64,000 nucleotides of DNA from Geothrix fuzhouensis (GTDB lineage: Bacteria; Acidobacteriota; Holophagae; Holophagales; Holophagaceae). Within the stretch, counting starts at the first letter, position 1. Each line of letters opens with the position of its first letter. The stretch covers positions 124,001-188,000 of the forward strand of contig NZ_JANHMQ010000003.1 of assembly GCF_024609325.1 (NCBI RefSeq), given 5' to 3'. Of the stretch, positions 49,129 to 55,293 are shown piece after piece. The translations under genes were made by a program, and so were the position numbers. Below the pieces are notes generated by a model. The model saw only the letters and a program-made list of their open reading frames with translations, was not told the DNA's origin and searched no databases.

Positions 49129-49950
49129 CTACCTCAGCGCTTGCTCAAGGGCAGTCGCCGCGTCGGTCCGGTCGTCGCGGTACTTCACGATACAGGGGGC
49201 GGACACCTGGAGTCCGTGCGCCTTGGCATAGTCGCCCGAGGCCGGGCGGGACCCCGGCACCACCACGGCGCCTTCGGGCACCTCCTGGCGCAGCTCCCGG
49301 CCGTGCACCAGGTCGTAGATCACGGTGCTGCCCGTGATGACCACGCCCGAGGCCAGCACCGCCCGCTTCCGCACGACGATGCCCTCGAACAGGCCCACGA
49401 GGCCACCCACGAAGGCGTCGTCCTCCACCACCACGGGCCGGGCGCCCGCGGGCTCCAGCACGCCGCCGATCTGGGCGGCAGCGGAGAGGTGCACCCGCTT
49501 GCCGATCTGAGCGCAGCTGCCCACCAGGGCGTGGCTGTCCACCATGGTGCCCTCGTCCACGAAGGCGCCCACGTTGACGTAGGCCGGGGGCATGATCACC
49601 ACCCCCTTCGCGATGTGGGCGCCGCGGCGCACGGAGGAGCCGCCAGGCACGAGGCGCACCCCGTCCTCCAGGCCGAAGTGGCGGGCCGGGTAGGCGGTCT
49701 TGTCGAACATGGGAAAGCCGGGCCCGGGCATCTCCACGAGGCTGGTGCGGCGGAAGCCGCAGAGGATGGCCTGCTTCACCCACGGGTTGGCCTGCCAGCT
49801 GCCGTCCGACCGCTGTTCGGCGGCCCGCACGATCCCGCTCTCCAGGGCGGAGAGGAGCACCTGGTGCATGGCGGGCGCTTCGGGATCAGTCGTCAGTTCC
49901 TCCGGGGAACGGCTGAAGAAGCGGTGGACGGTATCCAGATCGACGACCAT
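49129..49950 (-). CDS. dapD: 2,3,4,5-tetrahydropyridine-2,6-dicarboxylate N-succinyltransferase
   Basis: DapD succinylates tetrahydrodipicolinate in the succinylase route. The 273-residue protein has a left-handed beta-helix of hexapeptide repeats (GGSSVRRGAHIAKGVVIMPPAYVN-type runs, VGSCAQIGKRVHLSAAAQIGG) and PVVVEDDAFVGG. The N-terminus LDTVHRFFSRSPEEL is family-like. Its ATG overlaps the dapA stop as TGATG. Confidence 0.95.
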   Translation of the reverse strand: MVVDLDTVHRFFSRSPEELTTDPEAPAMHQVLLSALESGIVRAAEQRSDGSWQANPWVKQAILCGFRRTSLVEMPGPGFPMFDKTAYPARHFGLEDGVRLVPGGSSVRRGAHIAKGVVIMPPAYVNVGAFVDEGTMVDSHALVGSCAQIGKRVHLSAAAQIGGVLEPAGARPVVVEDDAFVGGLVGLFEGIVVRKRAVLASGVVITGSTVIYDLVHGRELRQEVPEGAVVVPGSRPASGDYAKAHGLQVSAPCIVKYRDDRTDAATALEQALR

Positions 49951-50852
49951 CAGATCACTCCGGGGAAGGTGCCCTCGGTGGAGAGGCAGAGGGCTTCGGC
50001 CAGGCGGGTGCGGGTGGCCGCGACCGCGGGGACCAGGGGCAGACGCAAGCCATCCCCGCAGAGCCCCAGCATCTTCAGAGCCGCCTTCAGGGGGATGGGA
50101 TTGCTCTCGACGAACAGGGCGTCCATGAGGGGCAGCAGCTGCTGGTGGAGGCGGAGCGCCTCGGCCCGGTCGCCCCGGCGGGCGGCGGCGACCAGGGCAG
50201 CGGTCTCCCGGGGCAGGGCGTTGCCCAGCACCGAGATCAGGCCCGAGGCCCCCACGGCGATGGCGGCCAGGGCCAGGTTGTCGTCCCCCGACAACAGGAC
50301 CTTCCCCCGCGGCAGCTGGCGGACGATCTCCGCGATCTGGGCGAGGTTGCCGCTGCTCTCCTTCACGGCCACCACCTGGGGGTTCTCCCAGAGCCGCGCC
50401 AGAACGGGCGGCGTCACGTTCAACCCGGTGCGGCCCGGCACGTTGTAGGCGATGAGCGGGAATCCGGGCGCCGCCTCGGCCACAGCGGCGAAGTGTGCCA
50501 CCAGGCCATCGGGCGTGGGCTTGTTGTAGTAGGGCGTGACCACCAAGGCGCCCTGGGCGCCGAGGGCCTGGGCCCGTTTCGTCATCGCCGCGGCTTGGCG
50601 GGTGGCGTTGTGGCCCGTCCCCACGACCACGGGGCGGCCGCTGCTTTCCTCCAGGCAGGCGGTGATGAGGATGTCGCGCTCGACTTCGACGATGGTGGCG
50701 GCCTCGCCCGTGGAGCCCAGGGGTACGAGGAAGTCCACACCGCCGGCCACTACGTGGCGCACCAGCTTCCGGAAGGCGGGCAGGTCCACCTCGCCCGAGG
50801 CCTTGAAGGGCGTGGCCAGGGCGACAGCGAGGCCGGAGAGATCAAGGGTCAT
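49950..50852 (-). CDS. dapA: 4-hydroxy-tetrahydrodipicolinate synthase
   Basis: DapA condenses pyruvate with aspartate semialdehyde. The 300-residue barrel has LVPLGSTGEAATI with the substrate Thr, the catalytic Tyr region VVTPYYNKPT, the second loop IAYNVPGRTG, and the Schiff-base Lys in VVAVKESSGNL. ATGA overlap joins it to dapB upstream and TGATG to dapD downstream. Confidence 0.96.
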   Translation of the reverse strand: MTLDLSGLAVALATPFKASGEVDLPAFRKLVRHVVAGGVDFLVPLGSTGEAATIVEVERDILITACLEESSGRPVVVGTGHNATRQAAAMTKRAQALGAQGALVVTPYYNKPTPDGLVAHFAAVAEAAPGFPLIAYNVPGRTGLNVTPPVLARLWENPQVVAVKESSGNLAQIAEIVRQLPRGKVLLSGDDNLALAAIAVGASGLISVLGNALPRETAALVAAARRGDRAEALRLHQQLLPLMDALFVESNPIPLKAALKMLGLCGDGLRLPLVPAVAATRTRLAEALCLSTEGTFPGVI

Positions 50853-51571
50853 GGTCTTCCTCCAAACACAAAGAGGGGGTCGAGCAGATCGGCGGCCAGG
50901 TCATCCATGGTGAAGACGCCCTTGCGGCCATGAACCCAGCGGGCGGCGACCAGGGCGCCTTGCGCGAAGGGGGCGCGGGACCGGGCCCGGTGCGTCAGCT
51001 CCAGCACCTCGGCCGGGGCATCGATCCCCACGGTGTGCGTGCCGAACTCGGCCCCGGCCCGCACCACGCCGACGCTCAGCTGGTGCGGCGCCGGGGTGCC
51101 GAGGGTCCATTCCGTTTTGCGGGGACAGCCCACCATCAGGGCCGCCGCCAGGGTCTTGGCCGTGCCCGAGGGGGCGTCGACCTTGAGGCGGTGGTGATGC
51201 TCCACCAGGTAGGGGTCTCGTGCCGGATCGAGGGCGGCGAAGCGGCCCAGTACCGTGGCAAAGCGCGCCATGAGGGCCACGGAAATCGAGAAGTTTGAGG
51301 CCGAGAGCACGCCGATGCGGCCTGCCACGCGGGCCTCAAGTTCCGGAATGGCCCAGCCCGTGGTGCCGATCACCAGATCCGTCCCCGTCGCCAGGGCCCA
51401 GGCCAGGTGCGCTTCCACCGCCTCGGCCACGCTGGCGTCGATGGCCACGTCGGCCTTGGCTTCCGGGGTGTCGCCACGGCCCACCTGCCAGGTCAGGGAC
51501 TCCGCGGCTACCGCGGCGATGGCGGCCCCCAGACGGCCCTTTCCGAACAGACCGATGCGGAAGGGCGTCAC
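50849..51571 (-). CDS. dapB: 4-hydroxy-tetrahydrodipicolinate reductase
   Basis: The 240-residue NAD(P)H enzyme has the nucleotide loop GLFGKGRLGAAIA, GTTGW, SNFSISVALM, and the signature EHHHRLKVDAPSGTAK with the catalytic His and Lys. It starts at a GTG whose last two bases are the first two of the lysC stop (GTGA). Length is slightly under the usual 265-270, because the N-terminal Rossmann half is compact. Confidence 0.95.
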   Translation of the reverse strand: MTPFRIGLFGKGRLGAAIAAVAAESLTWQVGRGDTPEAKADVAIDASVAEAVEAHLAWALATGTDLVIGTTGWAIPELEARVAGRIGVLSASNFSISVALMARFATVLGRFAALDPARDPYLVEHHHRLKVDAPSGTAKTLAAALMVGCPRKTEWTLGTPAPHQLSVGVVRAGAEFGTHTVGIDAPAEVLELTHRARSRAPFAQGALVAARWVHGRKGVFTMDDLAADLLDPLFVFGGRP

Positions 51572-52908
51572 GGCGTCCCTCCCACCAGCACGTGGTGGAG
51601 TCGGCGCAGGGCCTCATCGCCCTGTTCCTGGCGCACCACGAGGCTCAGGTTGATCTCGTTGGCGCCCATGCTGATCATTTCCACGTTGATGTCACCCAGC
51701 GAGGAAAGCAGACGGGCACCCAGGCCAGGCGTGGACTTCAGGCGTTCTCCCACGGCGGCGATGATCGCCCGGCCCTCGTTCACCTCCACCGTGGCGAAAG
51801 CCGAGAGGTCCTTGATCAGCGCCTTCAGCGGCATGCCCGCCTCCACGGTGAGGGACACGCTCACCTCGGCGGTGGCCACCAGATCCACGCTCACCCCGCG
51901 GCGGCCAAACACCTCGAAGAGGCGCGCCAGGAAGCCGCTCTGGGCCAACATGCGGGAGCTGCTCACGGTGAGCACCGTCACCGGGCCGCGACTGGCCAGG
52001 GCCGTGATGGGGCGGCCGGTTCGGACCTCGGCCGAAATGGTGGTGAAGCGGCCCTCGGGTTTTTGCGTATGCCGGACAGTGACGGGGATGCGGGCCTCGA
52101 CGGCGGGCTGGATGGTCGCCGGATGGAGGACCTTGGCCCCGAAGGCCGCCAGCTCCGCCGCCTCCGCGAAGCTCAGCTCGGGAATGGGCAGGGCCTCGGG
52201 GACGATGCGGGGATCGGCGGTGAGCACGCCTTCGACATCGGTCCAGATCTGCACCTCCGCCGCGCCCAGGGCCGCGCCGAAGAGGGCCGCCGAGAAATCA
52301 CTGCCGCCGCGACCCAGGGTGGTGGTGAGCCCATCCTCCGTGGCGCCGATGTAGCCCTGGGTGACCACGGCTCGGCCGGGCCCCAGCAGCGGCTGCAGGT
52401 GTTCTGCGGCCAGGGAGCGGATGGCGTCCTGCTGGGGCGCGGCCTCGCCGAACACGGCATCCGTGCGCAGCACGGTCCGAGCGTCCACCCAGGCGCCGCC
52501 TACATAAGCCGAGAAGATTCGCGTGGACAGCCGCTCGCCCAGAGAGGCGATGGCATCCATGCTGCGGGGGCTCAGCTCGCGCAGCATGGCCACGCCGCGG
52601 AGCAGGAGCTCCAGCTCCCCGAAGAGGTCCGTGAGCGCCACATCCAGTTCCTCGGGCACCTCGCCGGCGAAGAGGTCCTCCGCCGCCTTCCGGTGGGACG
52701 CCATGAGCTTCCGCTGGCGCTCCATGGCGCCACCAAGGTCCCCGGCCTCCGCCGCCTTCGCCGCCTCGAAGAGACCGTTGGTGGTCTTGCCCATGGCGGA
52801 CAGCACCACCAGGGGCGACTGGGGCAGGGCCGCCTTCACCAGGCCCGCCACCTGCCGCATGCAGGCCGCATCGGCCACGCTGCTGCCACCGAACTTGAGG
52901 ACGATCAT
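51568..52908 (-). CDS. lysC: Aspartokinase
   Basis: LysC phosphorylates aspartate, the entry step for lysine, threonine and methionine. The 446-residue protein has KFGGSSVADAACM at the start, LSAMGKTTNGL, LGRGGSDFSAALFGAALGA, the EVQIWTDVEGVLTADPR segment, and two C-terminal ACT domains for feedback control (VSVSLTVEAGMPL; LLSSLGDINVEMISMGANE). The ATG at 52908 begins the family N-terminus and overlaps, as ATGA, the stop of a mini reading frame built from a copy of the asd 3' end. Confidence 0.97.
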   Translation of the reverse strand: MIVLKFGGSSVADAACMRQVAGLVKAALPQSPLVVLSAMGKTTNGLFEAAKAAEAGDLGGAMERQRKLMASHRKAAEDLFAGEVPEELDVALTDLFGELELLLRGVAMLRELSPRSMDAIASLGERLSTRIFSAYVGGAWVDARTVLRTDAVFGEAAPQQDAIRSLAAEHLQPLLGPGRAVVTQGYIGATEDGLTTTLGRGGSDFSAALFGAALGAAEVQIWTDVEGVLTADPRIVPEALPIPELSFAEAAELAAFGAKVLHPATIQPAVEARIPVTVRHTQKPEGRFTTISAEVRTGRPITALASRGPVTVLTVSSSRMLAQSGFLARLFEVFGRRGVSVDLVATAEVSVSLTVEAGMPLKALIKDLSAFATVEVNEGRAIIAAVGERLKSTPGLGARLLSSLGDINVEMISMGANEINLSLVVRQEQGDEALRRLHHVLVGGTP

Positions 52909-53021
52909 CGGAGGTACCCCTTCGCATGGGCGAGTTCCGCATTGAGGATGCTGCCGCCCGCCGCGCCCGATCGCGGGCTGCCAGACAACACGTGCGAGAG
53001 GCGGTTCGAGGAACGGATCAT
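52905..53021 (-). CDS. Mini-ORF 2 ending in a copy of the Asd C-terminus
   Basis: This 38-codon frame starts with ATG overlapping the stop of mini-ORF 1 and ends with TGA overlapping the lysC ATG. Its last 20 residues, GAAGGSILNAELAHAKGYLR, equal the Asd C-terminus. The codons for the last 15 residues differ from those in asd at five places, all synonymous. The first 18 residues (MIRSSNRLSHVLSGSPRS) have no known match. It may be translated to keep ribosomes coupled from asd to lysC, or it may be a relic of the original asd end. Confidence 0.5.
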   Translation of the reverse strand: MIRSSNRLSHVLSGSPRSGAAGGSILNAELAHAKGYLR

Positions 53022-53203
53022 CGGAGGTACCCCTTCGCATGCGCCAGTTCGGCGTTCAGGATGCTGCCGCCCGCCGCGCCCGCTCGGGGGGGCCCCGCTC
53101 TGCGATCCCGCGCAGCGGGGAGCATGAGGACATGCCTTGATGGCATGTCCGATCGCGGGCTGCCAGACAACACGTGCGAGAGGCGGTTCGAGGAACGGAT
53201 CAT
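53018..53203 (-). CDS. Mini-ORF 1 ending in a copy of the Asd C-terminus
   Basis: This 61-codon frame starts with ATG overlapping the asd stop (ATGA) and ends with TGA overlapping mini-ORF 2's ATG. It shares its first 18 and last 20 residues with mini-ORF 2; a 23-residue insert between them (DMPSRHVLMLPAARDRRAG and so on) is encoded by the hairpin-rich 69 bp. The last 20 residues match Asd with identical codons. Whether it is a real peptide is open. Confidence 0.45.
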   Translation of the reverse strand: MIRSSNRLSHVLSGSPRSDMPSRHVLMLPAARDRRAGPPRAGAAGGSILNAELAHAKGYLR

Positions 53204-54255
53204 CGGAGGTACCCCTTCGCATGCGCCAGTTCGGCGTTCAGGATGCTGCCGCCCGCCGCCCCTCGCTCAGTGTTGTGGCCAAGGAGGGCGAACTTCACGC
53301 CGAGGATGGGGCAGGCCCGAAGGCGGCCCACGTGGACACTCATGCCCTCGTCCCGCTCCACATCGCGGCGCACCTGGGGGCGATCCTCCAGCGTGTGGAC
53401 ATGGATGGGAATGGGCGGGGCCGAAAACAGCTTGAGCCTCTGAGGCTCGGGCCTCCAGGCCAGCCAGGCGTCACGCACGGCCTCCAAGGAGGGGTTGCCC
53501 TTCAGCTTCACGCTCACGGCCTCCGTGTGGCCCTCGATGACAGGCACGCGGTGGCAAAGGGCACTCACCAGCATGGGGGCCAGTTCCACTTCCTTGCCCG
53601 TGAAATGGCCGAGCATCTTGGGGGTCTCCTCCTCCACTTTCGGCTCCTCATTGCGGATGAAGGGGATGACGTTGCCCAGGATGTCCAGGCTGGCCACGCC
53701 GGGATAGCCCGCCCCGCTGATGGCCTGCATGGAGGTCATCATCACGGCCTCCACGCCGAAGGCCTGGTGCAGCGGCGCCAGGGCCATCACCAGCACGGTG
53801 GAGGTGCAGTTGGCGTTGGTGATGATGCCGCCGCTCCACCCATGGTGGTGGCGCTGGACATCCAGCAGGCCCAGATGGTCCGCGTTGACCTCCGGCACCA
53901 GCAGCGGCACTTCCGGCGACATGCGGTAGGCCGCGGCGTTGGAAAACACCATCGCCCCGGCGCGAGCGAAGGCAGGTTCGAGATCCTTGGCGGGTCCCGT
54001 GTCCAAGGCGCTGAAGATCACCGGCGAGAGGGCGAACTCCGGGGTGCCCTCGGCCATCACCTGGTCGCCCAGGCCCCCGTAGGGCTCGCCGTCCAGGCGC
54101 CAGGCGCAGGCATCGCGGTAGCGCTTGCCGGCGCTGCGTTCGCTGGCGGCGAGGTGCTCGACGCGGAAGAGGGGATGGTTGGCCAACCGGCGCACGAAGC
54201 GCTGGCCGACGACGCCAGTGGCGCCCAGGACGGTGACAGGAATTCTGGTGGTCAT
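53200..54255 (-). CDS. asd: Aspartate-semialdehyde dehydrogenase (fungal/archaeal type)
   Basis: Asd reduces aspartyl phosphate to the semialdehyde. The 351-residue protein has VTVLGATGVVGQRFVRRL, SNAAAYRM, the catalytic Cys in ITNANCTSTVLVMALAP, the His of HTEAVSVKLKG, and the C-terminal GAAGGSILNAELAHAKGYL. The length and motifs fit the branch found in archaea, fungi and some bacteria. dapE ends 3 bp upstream. The 3' end is duplicated downstream. Confidence 0.96.
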   Translation of the reverse strand: MTTRIPVTVLGATGVVGQRFVRRLANHPLFRVEHLAASERSAGKRYRDACAWRLDGEPYGGLGDQVMAEGTPEFALSPVIFSALDTGPAKDLEPAFARAGAMVFSNAAAYRMSPEVPLLVPEVNADHLGLLDVQRHHHGWSGGIITNANCTSTVLVMALAPLHQAFGVEAVMMTSMQAISGAGYPGVASLDILGNVIPFIRNEEPKVEEETPKMLGHFTGKEVELAPMLVSALCHRVPVIEGHTEAVSVKLKGNPSLEAVRDAWLAWRPEPQRLKLFSAPPIPIHVHTLEDRPQVRRDVERDEGMSVHVGRLRACPILGVKFALLGHNTERGAAGGSILNAELAHAKGYLR

Positions 54256-54258
54256 GGT

Positions 54259-55293
54259 TCAGTCTCCCAGGAAGTGCAAGGCCAATCGGCGGTTGAGTTC
54301 CACGCCCTCCTCCAAATCGGCGAGGGTAAGGCGCTCCTCCAGCGTGTGTGCCACGCGGATGCTGCCCGGCCCGGCCAGCACCACCGTGCGGTCGGGCACC
54401 AGGGCACGCAACGTGGGGGCGTCGGAGCCGAAGGGCATGGCGGCATAGTCGAAGCCGGGAATCTCGGGATAGCGGTCCGGCGCTTCGTCGAGGGTGAGGG
54501 CCACCGAACCCTCGGGCGGGGCCAGGCGGCGGGCTTCCACGACAAAGGTGCTGTCGGGCAGGGTGCGGGCCATGATCCGGGCCTCCGCCGAGGCCGGCAC
54601 GGAGTTGAGGGCCTCGCCGGCCCGAAGCAGGCCCAGGTTCCAGACCTCAGGCCCCAGGGCGGAATCGACGGGGCGCGGCTGCTCGCGCAGGCGCTGGAGC
54701 CAGTCCAGCAGGGGCCAGGTCGCGTCGTGGCCCAGCTCGGGGCTGCCGCTGTGGGCGGCCCGGCCCCTGCAGTGGAGGCGCAGGTGCTGGGCGCCCCGTT
54801 GGCCCGTGGCCAGCTTCAGGTCCGTGGGCTCGCCATTGACGAGGACGCGCAGCTCCCGCAACCGGCCCGCCAGGCCCAGGGCCGCCGAGGCTCCGGCGCT
54901 ATCCGTCTCCTCGCCCACCACCCCCAACCAGGCCAGATGTTCGTGACCCTCCGCCAGCAGGGTCCGGATCGCCCCGAGCTGGGCCGCGATCTGGCCCTTG
55001 GCATCGCAGGTGCCGCGGCCCAGGAAGACCTCACCCTCCAGCCGTGGCGGCAGATAGGGCGGCACCGTATCGAGGTGGGTAGAGAAGAGCACGCGCGGGT
55101 TGCCCCAGAGGGCCAGGACATTGGTGCGGCCCTCCGCCACGGGCTGCTCGATGACCTTCGCGCCGAGTGCCAACAGGAGGGTCCGCAGCTCCGGCTTCCC
55201 CGCGTCCTCCTGGCCCGAGGTGGTCTCGCAGGCGCACAACCGCTGGAGGCTGCCGGTGAGCCAGCGTCGGAGATCAGCGGTGGTGGCGTTCAT
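54259..55293 (-). CDS. dapE: Succinyl-diaminopimelate desuccinylase (M20 family)
   Basis: The 344-residue M20 metallopeptidase has the metal ligands in LFSTHLDTVPPY, GRGTCDAKGQI and GVVGEETDSAG, and a lid/dimer domain with RGRAAHSGSPELG. ArgE is the main alternative, but its place at the head of a dap operon with dapD indicates DapE. GAGG lies 6 nt before the ATG. Confidence 0.85.
   Translation of the reverse strand: MNATTADLRRWLTGSLQRLCACETTSGQEDAGKPELRTLLLALGAKVIEQPVAEGRTNVLALWGNPRVLFSTHLDTVPPYLPPRLEGEVFLGRGTCDAKGQIAAQLGAIRTLLAEGHEHLAWLGVVGEETDSAGASAALGLAGRLRELRVLVNGEPTDLKLATGQRGAQHLRLHCRGRAAHSGSPELGHDATWPLLDWLQRLREQPRPVDSALGPEVWNLGLLRAGEALNSVPASAEARIMARTLPDSTFVVEARRLAPPEGSVALTLDEAPDRYPEIPGFDYAAMPFGSDAPTLRALVPDRTVVLAGPGSIRVAHTLEERLTLADLEEGVELNRRLALHFLGD

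Follow-up and report, generated by a model that had tools for sequence, protein, structure and literature searches.

A probable small dispersed element between copies of the asd gene edge at the asd-lysC junction of Geothrix fuzhouensis

In the stretch of Geothrix fuzhouensis DNA that we analyzed (64,000 nucleotides of contig NZ_JANHMQ010000003.1, positions 124,001 to 188,000; hereafter the window), the end of the asd gene is present three times ahead of lysC, and each of these tails ends in a stop codon that overlaps the next start codon. How could the end of a gene come to be repeated between two overlapping genes, and what lies between the copies? We conclude, with a probability of about 0.72, that the repeats mark a small, non-autonomous, structure-forming element, dispersed among the Holophagaceae, which at this junction sits between two copies of about 65 bp of the asd edge. 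Behind this reading stands an element family with edge duplication at most of the tested sites, empty sites, grouping by locus and tandem arrays. The parts of the junction, in window coordinates and in order along the minus strand, are as follows.

53200..54255, minus strand: asd (aspartate-semialdehyde dehydrogenase), an intact open reading frame (ORF) matching Pfam PF01118 and PF02774.
53198..53268, minus strand: edge copy 1 (U), the asd tail with its stop and the overlapping ATG, from a repeat search; the boundary comes from local alignment, give or take a few nucleotides (nt).
53018..53203, minus strand: mini-ORF 1, 61 amino acids (aa), made of element plus tail, with an ATGA overlap at each end.
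53087..53197, minus strand: full element of roughly 110 bp, delimited with covariance model R2; its conserved core, which folds as a three-way junction, spans 53168-53087 and is preceded by a 5' part at about 53197-53169.
53016..53085, minus strand: edge copy 2 (D1), a second asd tail with ATGA, 1 difference per 60 nt from edge copy 1.
52905..53021, minus strand: mini-ORF 2, 38 aa, whose stop overlaps the lysC start.
52967..53015, minus strand: second element, truncated to the 5' part and the stub GTCTGGCAGCCCGCGATCGG (52986-52967), its hairpins gone.
52905..52966, minus strand: edge copy 3 (D2), the asd tail adjoining lysC, with five synonymous codon differences in GGSILNAELAHAKGYLR.
52917..52922, minus strand: AAGGGG within the duplicated tail, read from the sequence as a possible ribosome-binding site of lysC.
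51568..52908, minus strand: lysC (aspartate kinase), intact, matching Pfam PF00696 and PF22468.

The array thus runs tail, full element, tail, truncated element, tail. The asd stop codon TGA (53202-53200) overlaps the ATG at 53203 on the minus strand, and all three asd tails encode GGSILNAELAHAKGYLR. A sequence-only reading of this DNA had described the three tails, the two mini-ORFs, with their 61 and 38 aa, and the continuous series of ATGA overlaps that leads from asd to lysC, and our ORF list, repeat search and scripted chain agree with it on each of these points. It was also right that the tail next to lysC differs from the asd tail at five codons, all synonymous; this holds within GGSILNAELAHAKGYLR, and a sixth synonymous difference lies just upstream. 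Tails 1 and 2 differ by 1 nt in 60, and two copies of 114 nt are 99% identical. With model R2, described below, the full element scores 83.7 bits (E 1.9e-13) and the truncated one has an E of 0.0085; the truncated unit measures 113 nt versus 182, and the identical 113-nt form occurs in genome G050. In each of the three window tails AAGGGG sits eight bases ahead of the ATG, so that an edge copy would restore the start signal of lysC. As to which tail is ancestral, 60 nt of each were compared. Starting from the tail next to lysC, the asd tail of G052 is 2 differences away, the asd tails of G018 and G048 are 3 each, and that of its own asd is 6; the present asd tail lies 2 differences from that of G017 and likewise from that of G047. 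Thus, both window tails are equally near the asd tail of some other genome (2 differences), and the distances do not single out the ancestral one. No Pfam family was matched by mini-ORF 1 or mini-ORF 2. According to the ORF list and Pfam, the gene order on the minus strand is M20 peptidase, asd, lysC, dapB and dapA; this lysine-pathway operon is compact (window 49950-55293, minus strand), and overlaps of 4 nt are also found at lysC-dapB and dapB-dapA.

The junction could be read in 43 of 47 Geothrix genomes, the window's own (G000) included; the other four gave no asd hit. Inserts of 113 to 295 nt are present in nine of the 43, a plain ATGA overlap in 32, and the remaining two are disturbed or different (a disturbed measurement in G012, another junction in G051). 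That eight other Geothrix genomes have comparable inserts at this position means that the repeats of the window are not due to chance. The nine inserts measure 113, 167, 182, 185 or 295 nt, the last being 182 plus 113, which gives four unit lengths (113, 167, 182 and 185), and the core remains near-identical as far out as G019, whose Asd protein shares 83% identity with that of the window. On a tree of asd comprising 41 of the 43 rows (G052 and G063 were too short), the insert requires seven state changes, at least six of which are forced by well-supported branches, and its clustering is not above that of shuffled labels.

The core pattern of the insert turned up at other genes, and there too the edge of the gene concerned was repeated on either side. 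A first covariance model (R1), built from 12 sequences with an RNAalifold fold, gave 103 matches in 38 of the 47 Geothrix genomes at E up to 0.1. It was replaced by R2, for which the junction was drawn by hand on 77 sequences chosen from 87 unique elements, leaving out four tandem copies and six divergent ones; L068, L079, L080, L112, L126 and L132-L134 had been omitted earlier as divergent, cut short or duplicate, and the choice is therefore biased toward clean structure. R2 finds nine matches in the window's genome, two of them inside the window. Of 297 genomes sampled from the phylum, with at most 15 candidates scored in each, 28 have matches: 21 are Geothrix, four come from four other genera of Holophagaceae, and three from another family, f5. 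The asd element had no match when plasmids and phages were searched. Among viral contigs, 16 stretches carried the core pattern and three weak matches to the covariance model were obtained (best E 0.061); none of these fell on the core pattern itself, and we judge them to be chance. We found no Rfam family for the element and, in a search at the level of titles with thin coverage of subscription journals, no fitting published description from Geothrix or Acidobacteriota.

The family occupies 16 named gene edges. The intact gene on the 5' side of the element belongs to the Pfam families YebC, RF-1 (prfA), GFO/IDH/MocA, MoaE, TP methylase (which we take to be rsmI), DUF6677, UvrD, 2-oxoacid dehydrogenase E2, alpha/beta hydrolase, HATPase (presumably mutL), AAA-associated C domain, T2SSE, Dus or RidA; the target ORF at L094 matched no Pfam family. 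The order at the loci is the intact gene, then the element, then a partial copy pointing outward, the element being in sense orientation at gene ends and antisense at gene starts (rsmI, GFO/IDH, mutL-like, hydrolase and Dus). At a single reversed locus, the end of an ABC ATPase gene in three genomes (L132-L134), the element is inverted relative to the intact gene.

The edge repeats are the most regular feature of these loci. Of the 103 R1 places, 99 were fetched and 98 were testable, one being too near a contig end, with a place listed twice counted once; at 92 of the 98, a flanking direct repeat outscored all 492 control positions, which were taken from these loci. The second copy begins between -5 and +6 nt from the end of the model in 86 of the 92, and at -1 in 63, and for those 86 places the repeat is 29-166 bp long, with a median of 65. 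A repeat of the same score flanks 34 of 41 further places found with R2, other genera included, and in 30 of the 34 the second copy starts between -8 and +3 nt from the model end; these 41 are new places, some of them at known loci in additional genomes, and hence not all are new target genes. The 3' junction is sharp and the 5' junction is variable. At L112 (G057, contig C63) at least three tandem element-like hairpin units follow a T2SSE-type gene whose edge is not repeated, and at L256 and L259 (G071) element copies lie beside tRNA genes, the 62-nt repeat at L256 including tRNA-like sequence.

The 77 chosen copies fit a three-way junction with a closing stem (P0/P1) and two hairpins (HP1 and HP2). 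Standard pairs fill 94.2% of the cells, and the covariation score is 0.411, versus 0.125 for shuffled alignments and at most 0.079 with slid partners; the closing pair 13-82 is seen as G-C, U-A, A-U and C-G. Both sides have changed in 12 of the 21 pairs. Neither this count nor the number of pair types exceeds what shuffling yields, values as high being reached in 59 and 237 of 500 shuffles, respectively. RNAalifold alone recovers a smaller number of pairs in P1, HP1 and HP2. Among mismatches on the strand as written, A.C cells outnumber G.T cells by 66 to 5, and by 19 to 5 once the two dominant columns are set aside. With each locus counted a single time, the figures are 33 to 5 over all columns and 16 to 5 with those two set aside (the 16 was counted by hand). 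Since an A.C mismatch reads as G.U on the opposite strand, the complement of the strand as written is probably the one that folds, as RNA or as single-stranded DNA.

Grouped by locus, the elements need 12 label changes for 11 groups, versus a minimum of 10 and a shuffled mean of 52.8, and one old insertion per locus, followed by descent and loss, fits best. The two edge copies are closer to each other within than between genomes in 11 of 13 clusters, differing by 3.2% versus 13.9% at prfA and by 0.9% versus 7.0% at the DUF6677 gene, and the R1 matches include eight tandem arrays of two or three units. This likeness within genomes, the arrays and the clean empty sites would together be explained by ongoing recombination between direct repeats. 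Filled and empty sites with target duplication are found at asd and yebC and are less clear at rsmI, where the element label covers a loose pattern, remnants included. Junctions were read for 30 of 46 yebC hits and 30 of 45 rsmI hits; among the 30 yebC loci, nine carry the element, one is masked and one is cut short. Decayed alleles, reduced to the 5' hairpin part plus a TCTGGC stub, lie downstream of yebC at L226 and L232 (G002 and G047).

If the element is a dispersed insertion, why is the ATGA chain intact? An open chain of ATGA-linked mini-ORFs to lysC, rebuilt by script, is present in all nine insert-bearing genomes, and among the Geothrix junctions no relative had the copies with broken overlaps or frameshifts. 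Counting each variant once per locus, at loci with at least three rows, 20 of 22 length variants elsewhere are not multiples of three, versus none of three at asd; Fisher's test, uncorrected for phylogeny, gives p 0.004. The earlier suggestion that the copies kept translational coupling thus stands for this junction; the frame is conserved at asd-lysC, unlike at the other loci, where length variants ignore it. It should be noted that the absence of stops alone is weak evidence of a kept frame, because other frames are often open too. Summed over the nine genomes, the codon differences between the asd tail and the last tail are 33 synonymous and eight not, a split that is likewise only suggestive, as both tails may have changed.

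Conservation of the chain and of the structure is also what one would expect if the amount of LysC were set by the mini-ORFs or by the folded element, an explanation of the repeats that we nevertheless hold to be unlikely. The insert is absent from the plain junctions of 32 of the 43 genomes, the same element stands at unrelated genes, antisense at some of them, and mini-ORF 1 contains a single Lys codon. Furthermore, a search of window positions 52500-53600 against Rfam, which covers the lysine riboswitch and other cis-regulators, gave no match up to E 1, and no promoter- or terminator-like site was found at the junction; neither result supports a leader peptide or riboswitch.

The sequence-only reading had instead favored a duplication, or the capture of an allele, involving asd alone, which is not supported as the main cause, so that overall the reading is partly supported. 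Slippage or allele exchange could have duplicated the asd tail locally in tandem, without any mobile element and with the hairpin sequence as a bystander. This would accord with tails and units that are tandem and recombining, and with a lysC-proximal tail that resembles those of other species. We nevertheless consider it very unlikely, since what separates the tails belongs to a covarying family that shows this kind of edge duplication at 16 named gene edges; the repetition of the asd tail is not a plain duplication of the asd end.

A third possibility is that the edge copies were made by retroelement-like copying, either target-primed reverse transcription or a diversity-generating retroelement. 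The sharp 3' junction, the variable 5' junction and the long flanking repeats speak for it. On the other hand, reverse transcriptase (RVT_1), found in 14 of the 47 genomes, gave no match at E up to 1e-5 in the window's genome or in G018, G001 and G016, which are rich in the element; A, T, G and C all change between edge copies (U and D not polarised) without an adenine bias, and the strand as written has few G.U pairs. We regard this possibility as highly improbable, and its diversity-generating form was rejected for the lack of a reverse transcriptase in the window's genome and for its wrong spectrum. A group II intron origin was not adopted either, ten element loci having given no intron match at E up to 10; at L263 and L282, in f5, an element-like stem without a flanking repeat lies, as an extra stem, in or beside domain I of a group II intron. 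That short tandem repeats were misassembled, several genomes being fragmented drafts, is scarcely credible given that many assemblies, the one-contig genome G058 among them, show this architecture, and that the copies differ by synonymous changes.

Our preferred reading remains that of a dispersed element, for which the copying of the target edge beside the element's sharp end is the simplest account. Arrival of the element would entail copying of the target edge and so amount to a very long target duplication. At asd, one edge copy would preserve the C-terminus of the protein and the other would return the ATGA and the probable ribosome-binding site to lysC, so that the insertion would be nearly neutral. 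Recombination between the direct repeats would then expand the unit (to two in the window), homogenise the tails and often remove the element cleanly; the second element of the window may have lost its hairpins through an in-frame loss of 69 bp, and selection would maintain the passage of ribosomes from asd through the mini-ORFs to lysC.

Several observations weigh against this reading. No transposition was seen, and no partner enzyme was found, with only two families sought: RVT_1 and the Y1 transposase (Y1_Tnp, PF01797), the latter found in five of the 47 genomes and without a match in G000, G018, G001 and G016 at E up to 1e-5. Six of the 98 R1 places have no flanking repeat (L068, L093, L103, L126 and two of L112), and neither have seven of the 41 further places, among them both f5 places examined. 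In two of the 13 clusters, 5 (moaE) and 9 (UvrD), the edge copies are not closer within genomes. At rsmI, 13 of the 16 empty genomes (L181-L209) carry, as judged by eye, CTGCCAGA just before the start codon, which may be native sequence, part of a promoter or a scar of the element, and part of what was called the element there may itself be native. The asd elements all look like one old insertion, so that the present repeat there may not show the original length of the duplication. Finally, the frame test rests on only three length variants at asd, uncorrected for phylogeny.

A bolder proposal, which we put forward tentatively and think rather more likely wrong than right, is that the family represents a new class of mobile element in bacteria, namely a gene-less three-way-junction module of about 110-140 bp, probably folding on the opposite strand, that enters gene edges while copying tens to more than 100 target bases beside its sharp end, spares the gene it hits, even at a coupled overlap, and is maintained in the form of arrays whose units, each an edge with an element, recombine. 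If true, this would be a bacterial counterpart of the short interspersed nuclear element with built-in target repair. Overlapping genes of an operon would be expected to resist insertion; here, the repeat brings exactly the piece that makes the insertion harmless, giving the first gene its C-terminus and stop and the second its start signal. Because related genomes hold filled, empty and decayed alleles at the 16 named gene edges, the spread of the element, its cost at coupled junctions and the homogenisation of short repeats become testable.

How does the element compare with known systems? Diversity-generating retroelements also carry a copy of the 3' end of a gene downstream of it; they differ in that the window's genome has no match to a reverse transcriptase. 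Integrative elements may use the 3' end of a gene as their attachment site, leaving the gene intact on one side and a copy of its end on the other. The Geothrix locus shares this arrangement, but its element is too short for an integrase and occurs at many unrelated gene edges instead of at one attachment site. Repetitive extragenic palindromic (REP) sequences of the GTAG/CGTC families are likewise small, palindromic and extragenic, and two reports describe REP clusters or variable segments flanked by repeats (PMC3733652, PMC2884548). The Geothrix element differs from them in its low copy number (nine matches in the window's genome), its larger fold of three helices and, by eye, the lack of a constant GTAG or CGTC tag in its alignment. 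Furthermore, Y1_Tnp matches are absent from 42 of the 47 Geothrix genomes, the window's included, and the lack of this partner family there led us to reject a system of REP and REP-associated tyrosine transposase (RAYT). The closest published parallel that we have seen is that of the mycobacterial interspersed repetitive units (MIRU), short and apparently mobile repeats at start codons, whose ORF is coupled to the gene at -4 nt and whose insertion affects expression little (PMC12548453). Like MIRU, the Geothrix element is inserted into a stop-start overlap with a small in-frame ORF, at asd-lysC (nine of nine genomes) and not at the other loci. Set against this description of MIRU, it differs in having the edge of the host gene duplicated beside it, in folding as a covarying three-way junction, and in lying also in antisense orientation at gene starts.
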